The notes beneath the pieces were generated by a model, which did no database searches, was not told the origin of the DNA, and was given only the letters and a program-made list of their open reading frames with translations. DNA of 64,000 bases from assembly GCA_016858145.1 (NCBI GenBank), contig JAEHOE010000073.1, forward strand, positions 124,001-188,000, in the 5' to 3' direction. This document shows, piece after piece, positions 6,575 through 17,863 of the stretch (position 1 is its first letter; every line of letters begins with the position of its first letter). A program made the translations under genes and the position numbers. The DNA comes from Edaphochlamys debaryana. Taxonomy: Eukaryota; Chlorophyta; Chlorophyceae; Chlamydomonadales.

Positions 6575-9500
6575 ATGTGCCCCCCTTGGCGCTCCAGAGT
6601 GCAGCGCTTGTGGAGCCTTCTTGCCCCGCTAACCGTGCTGCTGCTGGCACCATGGAACGTGCCGGTGGATGGGCACGGCTTCATGACGGTCCCTCTTGCG
6701 AGAAATCTCAACAGGTGCGCACATGTGTGCAGGCCCGCCGGGCCCGTGAGGCCCGGCGCGGTCAGCAAGGTTGGCCGACGCTCGCGGATCAGGTGCTGTG
6801 ACTTATGACATATCTTCAACGTCTGCGAGGGCTGGGGACGAGCACACAAGGTTTCACTACGATAAATTGGCCCTTCCAATCAACGCCCGCCTCCCTGCCG
6901 CGCAGCCATCTGTATGACCCGCCAGACATCCGAGAGGTGGGTGAAGGCGCAGTGCTCAGTGCTTGAGTGGGACCTGAGGGTTCAGGCCGGGGTGCCCGGG
7001 CCCGCGCCAGGGTTTGACCCGGGCCTCACACCGTTGTCCCCCTCCAACCCAAACCCTGCAAAACCGCAGTACACCGCAGACCAGCTATCCGCTGGAGGTG
7101 GGTTCATGGACATAGACCAAACGGTGCTCAGCAGCGCGTATCATTGGCGCCAATTCCTGGCTCGGGCCCGAAACGGCGGCCCAGCAACGGCCCGCCTTGG
7201 GCCATACCCACCCTAGGACACAACGGGCACGGGGGCATTTGCCGTGGAGACGGCCATTGTTGAACATTGCTGATCATCTTACTCATCTGGTTGTATGAAT
7301 CCTTTGATTAGGCCGTATGGCCGTCAGCGGCGGCTTCACGCGGACGTGGCCCTACGGCCGGTACAGCCCTTGCGGCAACACCGCTGACGACCCCAACCCC
7401 CGTTGGATGTAGGTAGTAGGCGGGGTCTGAAGACTTGGGCTGCGCCGCGCAAGCACTAGGATAGGACGGGTGCTCGACAAGGATGCGGCGGGGGGCCAGA
7501 GCCACAGAGGCCATGCAACTCTGTGCTCGGGTCTTGCCAGCTCTTCACTCGAAGAACCTATTTGTCCTCACCCCTACTTGCTTAGTCGTCTGACGCGCTG
7601 GTCTCTTGCCCTGGGCTGTGACAATCGGAAACCGCAGGATACCTCGACCCATCGCTGCGACCTACACGGAGGGCGATGAGGTGAGGGGAATGACGCTTGT
7701 CACGACGTCCATGCTTGGCTAGGTAGCCAGGGTCCTCCCGCCCTCGCCCCGGCTGCGGTCACACCTGAACCTTTGCAGCTAGGCTAATCTCGCGCGCCGC
7801 TCCAAACCTGCACCGCACCCGTACGACAGATCGAGATCTCAGTGGCCGTCACGGTGCCGCATCAGGGCTGGTGAGCGTGTGCCCGGCGTCCAATTCCATT
7901 ACCGTTCTTCACGAGCCCAATCCAATCGCGAGCATACGACTCCATCCCAGCCTTACTCACACACCATATGGCAACCCGACTAATCCCCCTACAACACTAC
8001 CCCACCCCGCTACGCTGCATCGCAAACACAGGTTTGCCTTCCGCCTCTGCCCCAACACGTCTGCCACGACTGAGTGCTTCAACGCGCACTGGCTCACACG
8101 GGCGGACGGCGTTTGGAACGGGTCGCGCGTGTGGTACTACAGATCCGCAGGTACGGCATGACAGCGAGCTCCAGCATTGTACGGCACGGCGCATGTTTAA
8201 TTGGCCTTTGCGCCCACCTCTTCGTCTTTGGCCACTTCGCATCCTGCAGGGGATGGCTCCGCCCGTGCGTACAAGACCACCGTGGGTGCGTCCGGGGAGG
8301 GGCTGAGGCAGGGGCAGAAGGCAGCGGACGCGCGCCTATGACTGTCAGGTGCAATCCAGCATGATGGAAGCCCGGGCCGGGCCAAAAGCCACTCCGTAAT
8401 GACAGCCGCCCTTCAGCGCTCACGCGAGACGCTCGCTGGGAAACCAACCGCTGCCCCACCGCTTCAACCGCTCCCTTGACGCTTGTACAGGCTCGTACGC
8501 CAACGTGAACACGTACGGACTGCGGTACCGCCTGCCGCCCGGCGTCACGTGCGACGCGTGCGTACTGCAGTGGTGGTGGCCCACGGGCAACTCGTGCACG
8601 CTGCCGTGCCAGAAGGTGAGACCGGGTTTCGACGTTCAGTCTCAAGCGTGTGAACGGCTGACCGAGTGAGCCGGGGAATCCGTAGGCGCGGTGTTTGGCC
8701 GGCCGGTTTCAACTTGCCCGAAGCCAGCGTGTTGTGACGGTTCGAGGGACTCGAGCGAAGCTGCAGAAGACGGGCCTGTCAACCTGATGTTTCCAGGCTA
8801 ATGTTGACGGGGGCTGTCACCCTGGCACTGTCGGGCGTCCGACAACAGATTCGAGGAATGCATGATGCGGCCCAACGCAAGAGGCTCTGCTGTGAACTTG
8901 CATCCCAGTCCTCCTGCGCGCTGACCGCGCCCCCCCCTACCGCATGCCCGACCCGCTGCGCAGGAGGACCCGCTCTACAACGCCACGGCGGGCCCCAACT
9001 CGTGTGACGTCCAGAACATGGGCATCTGCGGCACCTCGACGAGCCTGTGGCCAGAGGAGTTCTGGAACTGCGCGGGTGAGTCAAAGGGTCAAAGGGTTCG
9101 GGGGATCTGCCCCCCCGGGGAACACGCTCCGTTAGGGCCACCCCAGGGTGAGGGCGACGGGCAGGCTGGGGGCTCGCAGGCTCGCGGCACGAGGACTTGA
9201 TCTTGGGCTGCTCGCGCAAAATTCCGCGGCCCGGCCATGGCATGTTCGCTTCGCCCTACCGTGTGACCCTCGCGCGCAGATGTCCGCATCCTGCCCCGCC
9301 AACGCCGCCCCCCGAGCCCCCCGAGCCCCCCGGGCAAGGTCCCGCCGCCCTCGCCAGCGCCCCGGCCGCCGGCCCCCAGCCCCCCCGCATCCGCGGGCGG
9401 CACCGCCACCCAATGCACCACGCTCGACTGGTGTGCCGGCAAGACCAGCGGGCTCTATGCCAACCCCTGCGACCCAGACTGTGAGCCTGGACGGTTGGCG

Positions 9501-12500
9501 GTTGGCGGTTGGTGGTTGGCGCTGATCCTGCGTGGCCGAGCTGAGGACCGGATTGAGTAGCGAGTCTGTGTGCAAGCTTGGCAGACCAATTGACATGCTA
9601 TGCCCTTGTGTTGTACGGCAACCCGCAGGCGGTTCGTACATTAACTGCGCCAACGGCTACACGTACGTACAGCTGTGCGGCGCGACGCTTGTCTTCAACG
9701 CCCAGCTCAAGTGAGGCCTCGGCGAACAGCTGCCAGCGAAGCTTCCACGCACATTGGAAACGAGTGTTGTCAAGTGGCGGCCGCCTACCGGCGCCCCAGC
9801 CCCAGCCCCTGCCACTGCTCCCCCTATCCTGCTTGTCCCCCCTCCCGTGCTACATGGCAACCTTCCCTCCCCCTTTCCCCCCCAGGTACTGCGATTATGC
9901 CGCCAACGTGCAGTGCTCCACGGGGCCCGGCCCCTCGCCTACGCCCTCGCCCTCACCCACGCCTTCGCCCTCGCCCACGCCCTCCCCGTCACCCTCCCCC
10001 TCGGGCGACTGCTCCGCCTTCTGCGCGGGCAAGGCGGACGGCTGGTACGCCAACCCCTGCTCGCGCGACTGCACCTCCGCCATCCAGGCGAGCGCAGGGG
10101 CCGGGGCCGGCCGCGCCCGGGGGCTGGGGCCGGGGATATTGGACATGTCGTGGTTCTGGGCGGGGTCGAAACTGAATGGCAGAGGGCCCCGCGCCTGGGG
10201 CGGGTCTCGGCTGGGGTGAGGGCCGAGGCCTCTGGGGTGGGGTGGGGTGGGGTGGGGTGGGGTGGGGTGGGGTGGGGTGGGGTGGGGTGGGGTGGGGTGG
10301 GGTGGGCATGGGGGATCGGGGGCCGGAGGGTTTCAGGTCTGAGCGAGGCCACGGGCAGTCGGTATATGGGCGGGGCTAGGGCGGCGGTGCCGTTCAATCC
10401 CCCCCCTGCAACGTCCCCTCGGCCCCTCCCTCCCTCCGCCGTGCACCCGCAGTGCTATAACGCTGGCAGCACCGCACTCCAGCCCTGCCCCTCGGGTCTG
10501 GTCTTCAACCCCACGCCCAAGATCTGTGACTGGCCCTACAACTACGTGTGCCCCACGCCCTCGCCCTCGCCCTCGCCCAAGCCGCCAGCGCTCAAGCCGC
10601 CCTCGCCCAAGCCGCCAGCGCTCAAGCCGCCCTCGCCCAAGCCGCCAGCGCTCAAGCCGCCCTCGCCCAAGCCGCCAGCGCTCAAGCCGCCCTCGCCCAA
10701 GCCACCCTCGCCTCCGCTGAACACCGGACCCAAGCCCCCGGGCCCCCCGAAACCGCCCAGCCCCCCTAAGCCTAGCCCCCCAAAACCGCCCAGCCCCCCT
10801 AAGCCGAGCCCCCCCAAACCGCCCAGCCCTTTCAAGCCCCCGAGCCCCCCCAAGCCGCCCAGCCCCTTTAAGCCCCCGAGCCCGCCAAAACCGCCGGTCC
10901 CCCCGCCCCGGCCCCCATCTCCTCGGCCGCCGAGGCCCCTTCGTCCCCCTCTGTCGCCAAAGCCCCCCAGCCCCGCCCCGCCCCCCAAGCCCGCCACCGC
11001 CCTCAAGCCGCCCTCGCCCAGCCCGCCTGCGCCCAAGCCGCCCTCCCCCAAGTTCCCCCCGCCCAGGCCCTCCCCCAAGTCCCCCCCGCCCAGGCCCTCC
11101 CCCTCCCCCTCCAACACCACATCGCACAAGGTCATCGGCTACCTAACCAACTACCTCTGGTGCGTGCGTGAACTGCGTGCGTCGCGCGCGTGCGTGCCTT
11201 GCGTAGAAGCGTACATGGGACTGTACGGCACTCTATCTAATTGCGGTACTCGGCCGATCTCAAGTACAGAGCTGTACAGGGCCCGTGCCGATGTACGTTA
11301 CCGCCACGTTACCACTTTGGCGCTCGCAGGTACTCCCAGGGCGCCAAGCCCGCCGACCTGTCGGCCTACCTGCCCAAGCTCACGCACGTTAACTACGCAT
11401 TTGCCACCATCAGCTATGCACCGGCACCCGTGGACCGGTGGGGGCAGGGGTGGAGAGGGGGTGGGGAAGGGGGGTGGCGAGGGGAGGAGAGGGTAGGGGA
11501 GGAGAGGAGGGATGAGTGGAAAGGGAGGTGGAGAGGGATGAGGGGGTAAAGAGTGCGGATGCTTCTGCCCGACTTGCCCACCTTACCGGCGCAAGCTGAC
11601 TGATGGGTGTCGCCGCAATCTGTTTATTTGTCGTACAGCTACTACATGGACTTCACTGACCCATGGGCCGATGTACAGTCCTGCCTGGGCGGCGCCATCG
11701 CCAACTGCCCCACCGTGAGTCAAGGGTCTATAAGGCGTGGTGCCAACGGAGGCCCACTTGCCAGCGTTTCTTTTCAATCTCCTCTCCTCTTCTTACCCTG
11801 CATGCGCGCTTCCCCGAACCCCCGTCACGCCCCCGCCCCCCCCCCCGCCCCCCCCCGCCCGCCCCCCAGTCCTGCATCGCCCTGGCCGCCACCTGCCCCG
11901 GCGACCTGCTCTCGCTCATCCCCACCACCAAGACCACCGTCGCCACCTGCCCCACCCAGTGCTACAACAAGGGCGGCGGCAGCGGCTACCCCCGCATCTG
12001 CAACACAGTGGCTAAGGACCTGAACTCACCCCTCAAGGTGTGTTCAGGGCTGCTCTTGTAAAGGCCGGGAAAACGTAGGCGCGGTGACTAGCCGGCCGGC
12101 CTTAGATACGGAATCGAAAGCCCGGGGCAAGGACTCAAGGGGTGGGTGGGTAGGTGGGTGGGTGTGGGGGGGGGATGCATGGTCGGCTGATCCGTGACCC
12201 GGACCCCCTAGTCCGTGCTCGTGGACCCTGCGTCCCGGTCATGGGTCCTGCTTACAGCACCACCGCGATGGGTCCTGCAGTCGGGTGCCACGCAGAAACC
12301 CAATGCCGCCCACCTACCCCTCGCCTCTACGTTGACACCTCGTCGCCACCACAGGCCTTCACCACAGTCCCTTGACCCAACCCTCCCCCCGTAACGCCCA
12401 CACCTCCACAGGCCTGCGGCCACTACGCCTACCTGCAGCAGTTCATCAGCACCAAGGCGCCGAACGTGCGGGCGCTCGTCAGCCTGGGTGAGGGCTCGCG

Positions 12501-15500
12501 AGGGGCTCGGTGGGGGAAGAAAGTCGGATCGGGCAGGGCGGGATCGGAGGCGGCGATAGTTTGACGTGCTTTGCGGGACTGGAGAGGCCCGAAAGCTTCG
12601 GCTGGAATCGCGGGGTGCGTTTTGCCGCCCCTCGACATTATAAGAGACCAAATGTAGTCATGATCCGTGCACGTGCTCTTCCGTACGGCAGGCGGTTGGT
12701 ACGACAGTAACTACTTCACGATGGCGGCCTCGGCGACGTACCGCGCCAAGTTTGCGGACAGCGTGGTGGACTTCCTCGACACCTTTGGATTTGACGGCAT
12801 CGACATCGATTGGGAGTACCCAGGTAGATACCGGTAGCAAGGGAATGAGCTAGGTATGGTAGCGTCCGCTACGAGACCGCCGCTGAAAGCGGATGGGTAG
12901 AGTGGAGAAGGGCGCAGACGATCGGCACTCCCTGACCCCAGCCATTGGACCGTCGCACTCGCCCGCTGCTCACCTGCTGGCCTGACCCGCTGCTGCTCGC
13001 CTGATGACCACGTTTCCCTCCCCCTCCCTCTCCACACAGGCTGGGAGCACGCCGGCCAGCCCCCCTACGGCAAGACCGACTTCGGTAACCCGGACGACAC
13101 ACGCGATTGCGCCACCGTGAGTGTCATGGAGCAGGGGCGATTAACTGATAAAAGGATTGGCCATTGGCAGTCCGTCCTGCCATAGGCCAGCTGTCCCTTT
13201 GTGCACCAAACCAGGCCTAGCACCCACACCCACGCCCCTCCCACCCACCCAGCCCCCGTCGCCCTCCTGGACCCGCTCCGGCGCCCCCTTCCCCTCATCC
13301 CCCTTCAACCAAAACCCCCCCTTCCCCCACCCCCCGTTCCCCCCATCCCCCCCATCCCCCACCCTCAGACCACCTGCACCGCTGACCGCTCCCAGGACGG
13401 GTCCAACTTCGTGGCTCTGCTGGCGGAGCTGCGCACGCGCTTCGACACGCGCAGGAGCAAGCGGGGGGAGCGGTACAGCATCAGTATGGCCGGGCCGGGT
13501 GAGGCGGGGGGCGGGGGAGAGGGGTGTGAGTGGGAGAGGGGGTGGCGGAGGGTGGGATGGAAGCGGGGGGTGTGGAGGGGGGCCGGGAGGGTGGGCGGAG
13601 GCAGGTAAGGAGAGGTCGCGGGGCGGGGACTGCGGACGTACTGGAGCCCGGTACGCTTGTGGGGACTTTCTAAAGCCGACGCTGTGACCCCCTTCTCTCA
13701 CCCTCTACGCCCATCTCCCTCTCCAATCCCCCCAGGCGGCGTGGACAAGCTGGACAAGATGCCCTTGTCCCAGGTGTGCGCCGCCATGGACTGGGTCAAC
13801 ATGATGACGTACGGTGAGTACGACAGGATCCAGCTGGCACTGCACGACAGCAGCAACCAACCGAGGAGCGCATTTCCCGTTGCCACGTTTCCTCCGACCT
13901 CCGACCTCTTGCGCGTTAGCTTCCTGCCCCTGTCCTTAGGAACCAGCATACCCTCGGAGCCAGGCACTTCATTCTCAACCCCTGTCTGCCGCTGCTTCCT
14001 CCCCCTCGCTCCACCTTCCCCACCACCCCGCCCCTTCAGACCTACACGGCGCCTGGGACTCGACGGCCAAGCACCAGTCAGCAGTGCGCGACCCCTCCGA
14101 TCCCCTCACCGTGGCGGGGGTGACCGCCAGCTACATGGCGCGGGGGTGCCCCAAGAACAAGCTGCTGGTGGGGGTGCCCTTCTACGGCCGGTGGGTGATG
14201 GTTTGGGGGGTGAGGCTCGGGGGTTTAGGGAGCGCTTGGCGGGTACATGTAACGCCAAATCCGAGCGGGTCGGGGCGGACAGAGTTCCATTCCTCGCCCC
14301 TGGCATTTTCACCCGTTGTTCTCTTACCCCCGCCAAACCCTCGCCCCCTCCCCCTTATTTGCTCCCTTCCCCCCCAGGGCGCTCCAAGGCGTGTCCCCCG
14401 GCCCCAACACGCTGCTGCCGGGACTGGGACAGCCCCACTCGGGAGTCGCGGCGACGCCCATGCCCCTGCACAAGGACATTGTCACAAAGGTACGCAGTTG
14501 GTATAACTTGTGTGTCAGTAATTGGTCTTGGGATGGGTTGCAGCGAGACAGGACGGAAGTGGCTGATGTGCTGTCGTTGACAGCTCCCTTTCCCCATCCC
14601 GTGTGTGTGGCACAGGGGTACCCAATCTATTACGACACAACCGACGATGCGTCCTACGCGTACGACAGCGGCAGCAAGACTTTCATCTCCTTCGACAACG
14701 ACCGGGCGGTTGGCGCCAAGGCGGATTACGTAATCCAGGAGGGCCTGGCCGGCGTCATGGTCTGGGCCCTGGGCATGGAGGGCCCGGGCCTGTGGACTGC
14801 CTTAACCGCCAAGCTCAACACGGGTGGCGGGCCAGGCCCGAGCCCCACCCCCAGCCCCAGCCCCAGCCCGAGCACCTCGCCCAAGCCCTCGCCCTCCCCG
14901 ACGCCCTCGCCCTCGCCCTCGCCCGGGCCCGACAACTGCAACAGCTGCGTCGGCAAAGCTGACGGTGCGTTTGAGCTTGCGGGGTTTATGCCACCATGCC
15001 GTTTCCTTTCATGCCTGCCAACTCACGTCCATTGGTGGTGCGTCGGAGCTGGGGGCTGCGAGGCTATCTGGTCCTGACAGACCTACTTCCCACCTGCCGG
15101 CACTTGGAGTCCACACCTTTTCCCTGCCCATGCCCCCTGTCCACACGCACACTCCTCAGGCTTCTACGCTGACCCCTGCGTGGCCGGATGCGTTGCGTTC
15201 ACTCAGGTGAGGACCGCGCGCGACAGCGCTAGTTTCAATCCTAGTGTCTCAATCCCTGTTTGCCTTGGTCTGGGTGCGCTTGTCCTGCTTCACCACATTT
15301 CTTCCCCTCCTCCATTCCTTCATCCGCCCTGCCAAATCTGTAACAAAGCGCGGCGGCCGTCCTGATGCGCGGGCTCATCCCGGTTGCCCTTACTCTGGCC
15401 CGGAAGTGTATTCCTTCCAATCCTCGTGCCCCCCGCTTTCCTCCCCTCCCCTCTGCACCCCAGTGTTCCGCTGGCATTGCCTACCCCAAACCCTGCCCCT

Positions 15501-17863
15501 CCGGCCTCGTCTTCAATCCCAACACGGGCAACTGCGACTGGCCCTACAACTACGCCTGCCCGGCCGGTGGCTCCTCGCCGCCCAGCCCGCCGGTCGTGCG
15601 GCAGCCGCCGCCCTCGCCCTCGCCACCGCAGCGGTCCTCGCCCCCTTCCCCTCCCACCGGGGCCCTGGGGCTCACCAAGGCGCAGTTCAGCTGCGTGTTT
15701 CTGGGCAACGGGGTGAGTCGGAGGAGGTTGACAAGTCGAGTGTATTAGTCAGTTATGACTGTGTTGTGAGGGGTCCCTCTCTCCTCCCTTCCTCACATGC
15801 CCGTCCTTCTCGCTTTCTCCACTTCCAACACCCGTGCTCGTCTCCTACCATACCGCCCCGCGCGCACCCCACCTAATGCCCGCCCCACCCCGCCCCAGGA
15901 CATACTGGGCCGTACCAACGACCAACCCACCGTGGACAAGCACTGGGCTCAGTTCTCGGGGGCAGCCACCGCCATGGGCTTCGCGTTCGGAAACACCGCG
16001 GAGGCCGCGACCTTCTTGGGCAACGTACGGCACGAGTACGGAGGTACGGCGGTGCGGATGTACGGCAGTGGTGGTTGTTGCCTGGACCCGGGGGGCGCGG
16101 GTGAAGGTGGAGATGGGGTTGGGAGTGGCGGAGGGGTTGAATCCCAGGATGGCTGTGATGCGGGCGTACGGCTGGATGAGCCCGTGCCGGGCCTTTGCCA
16201 TGGGCCCGTGCTGGGCCTTTACCATGGGCCCGTGCTGGGCCATTAACCTGGGCCTTTACCCTGGGCTGCGCTCAAGAGCCAGGGATGCAAGGGCAGGGTG
16301 TCAGTCAGAGGCAGAGCTTGCCTGGATGCTAGCTTGGCTTGGACCTGAGTCGTCCCTCTGCGTAGCAGCATTTCCACGCCTACGCCTATGCCTATGTCTG
16401 ACCTCCACTGTCTCACCTCCCCCCTCTCCCTTTGCCCCGTCCACGCCCACCTCGCCCTCCCCAGGGTACCTTGATGACATGACGGTAAGAGGGGGCTGGA
16501 GAGACGGGGTAGCTTGTGCCCCATTCCCCTCCTTGCGGGATGCCCTGGGTCTAATCCGCCTGCTGAGCCGGTCCCCACCAACTGGGCCACTTCCTGTTAC
16601 CTCGGGCCTACCTCTCACCCTGCCTTGTGCCCCCTACCTCGGTCCTTCCTCCTCCTCCCCCTCCTTTCTCCCCAAAGGAAAACTGCTACCGCCAGGGCCA
16701 TAACGTGGCCAACTGCCCGCCGTACGACGCCTGCGCCAGCGGGGGCCTCTCGGGGCAGAACTACTTCGGGCGGGGGCCGATGCAGATCAGTGAGTGGGGA
16801 ACTGAACTAGACCCCACAAGCGCGCACAATGACCTGAAAACGAGCCTGAAAGGGCTGAAGCAGACTGCCCCAACAACCGGTCGCGCTGTTGCTGTGACTT
16901 CGTCCTGACGCCCGCTCCCCCGTCTGCCGTACGTCCTTGCGTGTCGTCGTACAGCGCACTGCAACAATTACGCCGCCATGATTCCGTACATTGGCGGCGC
17001 TGACGTCAAGAACAACCCCAGCCTCTTGGCGGACAACACGCGGGACCTGGGCTGGCGAGCCACCATTGCTTTCTGGACCAAGGGGGACTTCAATTGCCAG
17101 TGAGGCGGCGCGGGTGGAAATTAAGGGGGGCGGTGAATGGTGCATGGGGGGTACATGGGGGTACATGGGGGGTACATGGGGGGTACATGGGGGGTACATG
17201 GGGGGTACATGGGGGGTACATGGGGGGTACATGGGGAGACATGCAGGGCGCGACGCTTGGAGGGGACCCTGTCAGCACCTTCGCTGGACCCCAGCCTCGT
17301 ACCCGTGCCCTCACCACTTCCTCCCCAGTAGCACCGCTCCCGCTGTAGCCTCCTGCCTCCTGCCGCGTCCCTCAGCTCCGCCCTCACCCCATCCACCGCG
17401 CCTGCTCTGCCCTTGCCCCCCGCTCCCACCAGGGGCTCCTGGGTGCCCAACAACCCCCCCGCCTGCCCCATCGCCGCGCGTGACTCCAACATTGCGGCCG
17501 TGACGCGCCGCATCAACGGTTGGGTCGAGTGCGACAAGGGTGTGCCCGCAAGCCAGGTGGGCTGCCAGGTTTGGGTCTCTTTGGGGCCTCCTCCTTTCAG
17601 ACTCTCCCCCTTGCCCCTGCCCCTGTCCGCGTCCCCTGCGTCTGACCCTGCCGCCCGGCTGCCTCTAGCCCCGGCTCTAGCCAGCCCTGTGTGGGATGGC
17701 TCTCTTTTCCTTGCCCCGCCTGGACTCGAATCTTGCCGCCCTCATCACTGCCGCCCCTTCTGTGCCCCCCGCCGCCTGACAGGCCGCACGCGTTGAGTGG
17801 GTCCAGAAGACGCGCGAGAACTGCTTCGGCCTGCCCCGAGTCACCACCAATCTATACTGCTAA
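6575..17863 (+). CDS. Secreted chitin-degrading fusion: AA15 LPMO-CBM14-CBM14-GH18-CBM14-GH19
   Basis: Thirty-two exons join in one frame, giving about 1435 residues. Exons begin at 6575, 6906, 7070, 7312, 7638, 7830, 8032, 8491, 8964, 9280, 9629, 9886, 10453, 11330, 11639, 11870, 12412, 12692, 13040, 13369, 13736, 14040, 14378, 14616, 15160, 15464, 15899, 16465, 16678, 16955, 17433 and 17783. Residues 1-33 are a signal peptide. Residues 34 to about 250 are an AA15-type LPMO: His34 becomes the N-terminus, a second copper His lies in VPHQGWFAFRLCP, and [16 protein letters not shown] and FWNCADV follow. CBM14-like modules lie at about 290-357, 385-440 and 1118-1185 ([16 protein letters not shown]). 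GH18 spans about 632-1085 with the full DGIDIDWE motif. GH19 spans about 1217-1435 ([26 protein letters not shown]). Linkers are Pro-rich. Expected role: extracellular chitin cleavage by oxidation and hydrolysis. The start at 6575 places His34 exactly at the cleavage site; in-frame ATGs at 6536 and upstream would lengthen the leader. Intron 12 uses a GC donor. Confidence 0.9.
8669..8713 (+). repeat. Short interspersed repeat, copy 1 (intron 8 of the chitinase gene)
   Basis: A roughly 43-bp motif with core GTAGGCGCGGTG followed by GCCGGCCGG. Near-identical copies lie at 12064-12106 (same strand) and 33472-33516 (opposite strand), all inside introns. Confidence 0.6.
10234..10307 (+). repeat. 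GGGGT microsatellite in intron 12 of the chitinase gene
   Basis: About fifteen uninterrupted GGGGT units lie in the intron that starts with a GC donor at 10088. The G-rich strand is the coding strand, so the pre-mRNA could form G-quadruplexes. Confidence 0.9.
10571..10700 (+). repeat. 30-bp coding minisatellite (Lys-Pro-Pro linker)
   Basis: Four perfect 30-bp units plus a partial one encode the decapeptide repeat [10 protein letters not shown] in the linker between the second CBM14-like module and GH18. Less regular KPPSPP-type repeats continue to about 11127. The perfect identity of the units suggests recent expansion, so linker length is likely to vary between strains. Confidence 0.9.
12064..12106 (+). 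repeat. Short interspersed repeat, copy 2 (intron 16 of the chitinase gene)
   Basis: Same motif as at 8669-8713: GCCGG, an A-rich spacer, then GTAGGCGCGGTG, ACTA and GCCGGCCGGCC. Its last bases match the copy at 33472-33516 more closely than the copy at 8669. Confidence 0.6.
16181..16265 (+). repeat. 24-bp tandem repeat in a GH19 intron
   Basis: Three diverged copies of a 24-bp unit (CCCGTGCTGGGCCTTTACCA then TGGG) and a partial fourth, inside the intron after the exon carrying the HEYGG motif. No coding role. Confidence 0.75.
17143..17236 (+). repeat. 11-bp minisatellite in a GH19 intron
   Basis: About eight copies of GGTACATGGGG with one or two extra Gs, close to the 5' end of the intron that starts at 17100. 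Confidence 0.85.

Follow-up and report, generated by a model that had tools for sequence, protein, structure and literature searches.

The window analysed here, a stretch of 64,000 nt of DNA from Edaphochlamys debaryana, carries a gene that encodes AA15, GH18 and GH19 parts together with three CBM14 modules in one frame, and its product is very probably a single secreted, modular chitin-degrading enzyme which most likely arose by the fusion of a CBM14-GH19 gene with an AA15-GH18 gene.

Gene structure, module order and catalytic motifs

The gene was spliced by hand from the raw sequence, each exon border being checked by script, and the rebuilt model on the plus strand (6575-17863) comprises 33 exons, 4344 nt and 1447 aa with 0 internal stops. 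The boundaries, the absence of stops and the consistent phase given by the sequence-only reading hold exactly, and its count of 32 exons is corrected to 33. The features of the gene are the following:

6575..17863, plus strand: whole gene, 33 exons, 1447 aa, from ATG to TAA, stop-free and with consistent phases
6575..6673, plus strand: signal-peptide-like N-terminus judged by sequence, residues 1-33, V-D-G and then His34
6674..9302, plus strand: AA15 LPMO catalytic domain, residues 34-265 (Pfam LPMO_10)
9303..9416, plus strand: Pro-rich linker 1, within exon 11, which also carries the last part of AA15 and the first part of CBM14 module 1
9417..9919, plus strand: CBM14 module 1, about residues 304-363 (Pfam CBM_14 and unit alignment)
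10007..10554, plus strand: CBM14 module 2, about residues 393-453, with a Ser-Pro linker ahead of it in exon 13
10088..10452, plus strand: intron 13, sole GC-AG intron of the gene model
10555..11112, plus strand: Pro/Lys/Ser-rich linker of 186 aa, within exon 14, which also holds the end of CBM14 module 2 and the start of GH18
11128..14777, plus strand: GH18 chitinase domain, residues 645-1078 (Pfam E 3.1e-69)
14616..14964, plus strand: exon 25, one open exon with the GH18 C-terminus, a Ser-Pro linker and the start of CBM14 module 3
14931..15565, plus strand: CBM14 module 3, about residues 1130-1190 (best Pfam stretch 1135-1188)
15464..15712, plus strand: exon 27, one open exon with the end of CBM14 module 3, a Pro-rich linker and the start of GH19
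15659..17863, plus strand: GH19 chitinase domain and stop, residues 1222-1447

Splice sites are GT-AG in 31 of the 32 introns, and the CBM14 units of a paralog on contig C74 carry introns at the position matching the exception, the GC-AG intron 13. The GC content at codon positions 1/2/3 is 0.579/0.599/0.868, and that of the introns is 0.641. Retention would disrupt the frame for 31/32 introns, through a stop in 25 cases and through length in six (introns 14, 16, 22, 23, 29 and 32), intron 24 alone being frame-neutral. At every one of the 32 intron junctions the flanking residues can be aligned with P0001 of Astrephomene or with the C74 paralog, and at 29 of them one comparison or both show no gap within 5 residues; introns 7, 15 and 20 have an alignment gap near the junction against P0001, and some junction alignments are weakly identical (3/11 residues at intron 26, for example). 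For introns 27-32 the C74 gene is not an independent witness, because its model was spliced in the same analysis; the database protein P0033, which was not spliced here, aligns over all six of these introns, interrupted near intron 32 by a gap of one residue. A gene structure of this kind is not plausibly due to chance. Two introns contain repeats: a run of GGGGT-type pentamers at about 10233-10306 in intron 13, and a tandem array of ~8 GTACATGGGGG-like units at about 17151-17236 in intron 31.

Pfam profiles run on the joined protein recovered LPMO_10, three CBM_14 stretches, GH18 and GH19, all over the curated cut-offs, which confirms the earlier claim that AA15, GH18, GH19 and three CBM14-like modules share one frame, in the order signal-like N-terminus, AA15, CBM14, CBM14, GH18, CBM14, GH19. 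The three CBM14 stretches (Pfam E 5.9e-30) fit the Cys-rich peritrophin-A pattern and can be aligned as units. NCBIfam gave only matches below cut-off, and Pfam on 10 of the window's 32 open frames of at least 250 aa, a few of the 32 lying inside this gene, gave nothing at E 0.01. The long linker ahead of GH18 includes 10-residue repeats encoded by four tandem 30-base units (10579-10698).

The first catalytic part was matched by LPMO_10 over residues 34-259 (E 4e-12, over cut-off), and we assign it to AA15 because its best solved-structure match is 5msz, a Thermobia AA15 enzyme (E 1.1e-15); the sole other solved match was an AA13 enzyme (E 0.013). A putative histidine brace is formed by His34, directly behind the hydrophobic signal-like segment, and His124 (7860-7862), aligned to a His of 5msz. 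Phe253 (9060-9062), within EEFWNCADV, we take to be the likely axial residue, placed by AA10 patterns. GH18 chitinases carry the motif DxxDxDxE, which is kept here as DGIDIDWE at residues 832-839 (Glu839, 12814-12816), and the region matches solved chitinases. The GH19 profile, that of the class I chitinase family, covers residues 1258-1430 (E 5.3e-12, over cut-off), and the region matches the solved GH19 structure 2cjl (E 5.5e-14). Its first Glu, Glu1285 (16034-16036), stands in HEYGG, which the structure match pairs with HETGG of 2cjl and which is present in 6/7 rows of the GH19 alignment, P0034 being without that stretch. A candidate second Glu is Glu1295 (16678-16680), invariant in all seven rows; it sits one residue from the 2cjl Glu in the ungapped match and does not fall on a Glu in the barley alignment. 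These comparisons support the prediction that the main catalytic motifs are kept in the AA15, GH18 and GH19 parts.

One polypeptide or several

Each of the five module junctions falls inside a single open exon: exon 11 spans AA15/CBM14-1, exon 13 spans CBM14-1/CBM14-2, exon 14 (707 nt) spans CBM14-2/GH18, exon 25 (349 nt) spans GH18/CBM14-3 and exon 27 (249 nt) spans CBM14-3/GH19. The linkage of the modules is therefore independent of splice guesses. The earlier statement that no terminal exon separates AA15, GH18 and GH19 stands, the junctions lying within single exons and the linker exons being stop-free, and these within-exon junctions answer the worry about a terminal exon in a linker better than phase does. 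Furthermore, Met is absent between residues 239 and 694 and between 1078 and 1265, and the only signal-like segment is N-terminal; the Met-free linkers thus contain no codon at which a separate GH18 or GH19 protein could begin in this frame. A misjoining of two or three adjacent genes by the model or the assembly is on these grounds highly improbable: a stand-alone GH19 gene does occur on C74, and such a gene could in principle adjoin an AA15-GH18 gene, but every junction is intra-exonic, the linkers are free of Met and the 64,000-nt window contains 0 Ns; an assembly join within a repeat-rich linker keeps a small probability.

The joined exons would be read from one mRNA, although a shorter main product deserves consideration. 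TGTAA is a polyadenylation-type motif, and six copies occur on the plus strand between 6001 and 20000, three of them within introns 17, 23 and 26, so that shortened transcripts are possible. If polyadenylation took place in intron 25 or 26, the locus might mainly yield AA15-CBM14-CBM14-GH18, with GH19 in some transcripts or none; the Astrephomene protein stops right behind GH18, intron 26 contains a TGTAA at 15339, and translation continuing beyond exon 25 would run into a stop in intron 25. Against this, exon 25 continues from GH18 across the linker into CBM14-3, the GH19 frame of exons 27-33 is intact with a dN/dS of ~0.36 against the C74 paralog, and two introns of the GH18 part also hold TGTAA. 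We consider this outcome unlikely, and the complete chain, with its signal-peptide-like N-terminus pointing to secretion, remains our preferred reading.

Relatives, paralogs and origin of the GH19 part

Residues 640-1447 were used as a query against database proteins of 0.55-1.75 times 1447 aa, with scoring of the 8000 candidates sharing most words. Among the 32 matches, the best by far was Agub_g8935 of Astrephomene gubernaculifera (P0001, 1098 aa), and none (0/32) carried the GH19 family. A search with the AA15 region returned four matches, two of them with GH18 (P0001, and P0039 which also has CBM1) and again none with GH19 (0/4). No other protein combining AA15, GH18 and GH19 was found in these two protein-database searches, and none of the matches listed was a database entry for the window gene itself. 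The GH19 part, searched against proteins of about 175-556 aa, gave five matches, of which two bear the name Tetrabaena socialis and none that of Astrephomene. One protein of Scenedesmus sp. PABB004 (P0038, named Mutyh) carries LPMO_10, 36% identical to the window AA15, along with other domains, and is perhaps a misjoined model.

Agub_g8935 resembles the window protein in its signal-like N-terminus, AA15, two CBM14 modules and GH18, in the same order, with identities of 63% for AA15 and 62% for GH18 (62-64% overall range); it has V-L-G ahead of its His where the window protein has V-D-G, and it differs in that it ends directly behind GH18, without the third CBM14 and without GH19. In Astrephomene, AA15-CBM14-CBM14-GH18 is thus one annotated protein, and a genome-wide statement of the source paper has RNA-seq used in gene model prediction (PMC8608804).

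The counterpart of the remaining part was found in the searched genome itself (141,892,200 bases, 502 contigs). The C74 gene (L067, minus strand, 7022-4267; spliced here) encodes 509 aa with a signal-like start, two CBM14 modules and GH19. Like the window gene it places CBM14 ahead of GH19, and the two GH19 parts are 73% identical over 220 codons; it differs in being stand-alone, with its own signal-like start and without AA15 or GH18. The four introns of its GH19 part are identical in residue and phase to window introns 28-31, and its CBM14 introns lie at the position of window introns 13 and 26, whereas window introns 25, 27 and 32 have no counterpart in the C74 gene. Differences between the two GH19 parts at codon positions 1/2/3 number 46/32/68, and the NG86 estimates over 220 codons (dN 0.195, dS 0.539) point to purifying selection acting on the two copies taken together.

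Exon matches revealed other paralogs, with GH19 on C54, GH18 on C180 and more weakly elsewhere, and AA15-like exons on C197, C183, C14 and C10, with weak ones on C1 and C72. All these were found with protein queries against the genome. Genome-wide Pfam profile searches for LPMO_10, GH19 and GH20 gave no match and are uninformative: their negatives carry no meaning because LPMO_10 and GH19, both present in the window, were missed by a method that misses multi-exon genes. Some AA15-like loci that are followed by CBM14-like exons are clustered, three at G000:C197:60480-70396 (L070, L071) and two at G000:C10:657479-662057 (L073); members of these clusters lie on opposite strands and look like local, partly inverted duplications.

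With such relatives on both sides, the simplest and most likely history suggested by these comparisons is that a C74-like CBM14-GH19 gene was fused onto the 3' end of an Astrephomene-like AA15-CBM14-CBM14-GH18 gene; alternatively, Astrephomene may have lost GH19. In a GH19 tree of 7 rows, one of the 4 inner branches was well supported; this branch does not contain the window sequence, and the tree accordingly gives no date for the fusion.

Possible function and comparison with known systems

From the families present, a natural reading is that surface binding, oxidative nicking and two modes of hydrolysis would be combined in one chain. The three CBM14 modules would anchor the enzyme to chitin, oxidative cuts in crystalline chitin chains would be made by the copper AA15 module, and GH18 (retaining) and GH19 (inverting) would hydrolyse the loosened chains, while the long Pro-rich linkers may allow each part to reach its own site.

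As to its use, the enzyme would most likely attack, close to the cell surface, the chitin that fungi, chytrids or grazers carry, with defence as our best guess; we prefer this role because the introduction of one paper mentions antifungal chitinases for the Volvox ECM (PMC9818292). A role in which the alga remodels chitin-like material of its own wall or spores, or feeds on chitin, is possible though less probable: further AA15-like loci occur in the genome, several of them with CBM14, and such a role could use the same chemistry. The search for the GH20 family was negative, by a method that had also failed to detect the LPMO and GH19 of the window. The gene also points to an elaborate chitin-attacking gene set in a photosynthetic alga, with a possible bearing on algal conflict with chytrids and other chitin-bearing organisms. 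If expressed whole, the protein would be a natural single chain uniting oxidative attack on chitin with retaining and inverting hydrolysis, and would offer a ready test of the synergy of tethered LPMO, GH18 and GH19 against that of a mixture.

Among the open-licence papers listed, no title or abstract start named an AA15-GH18-GH19 or a GH18-GH19 protein, and no paper among the open-licence ones searched combined the name Edaphochlamys debaryana with chitinase. The balance tips slightly towards this green-algal protein being the first natural polypeptide to fuse an LPMO with a retaining and an inverting chitinase cooperating on one chitin surface, with CBM14-GH19 added to an older AA15-GH18 enzyme.

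The nearest solved AA15 enzyme, TdAA15A of Thermobia domestica (5msz), can be aligned with the window protein in the region of the second brace His. The two differ in the axial residue, likely Phe253 in the window protein as against Tyr184 in TdAA15A (for the latter, PMC5823890). AA15 sequences of T. domestica are described as the catalytic domain alone (PMC5823890). Larger architectures come from other lineages: Sabbadin et al. (2018; PMC5823890) report some AA15 domains joined to GH18 in Chlorophyta, diatoms and tunicates, and some joined to GH19 in Oomycota and Haptophyta. The former share the LPMO family and GH18 with the window protein, the passage on them making no mention of GH19, whereas the latter share the LPMO family and GH19 and belong to other lineages, with GH18 unmentioned in that passage (PMC5823890). 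In addition, an account of the crayfish plague notes that AA15, GH18 and GH19 proteins of Saprolegniales share Cys-rich modules (PMC8393829).

The sequence-only reading had known of no described enzyme with this exact order. The triple was indeed found nowhere else in the protein searches, but AA15-GH18 and AA15-GH19 are published and Astrephomene has the front part. Since these two pair fusions are on record, two of the three possible pairs are known, and the literature titles and abstract starts hint weakly at the absence of the third, GH18-GH19; as far as our searches reach, the novelty of the E. debaryana protein relative to these known fusions lies in the triple AA15-GH18-GH19 in one chain.
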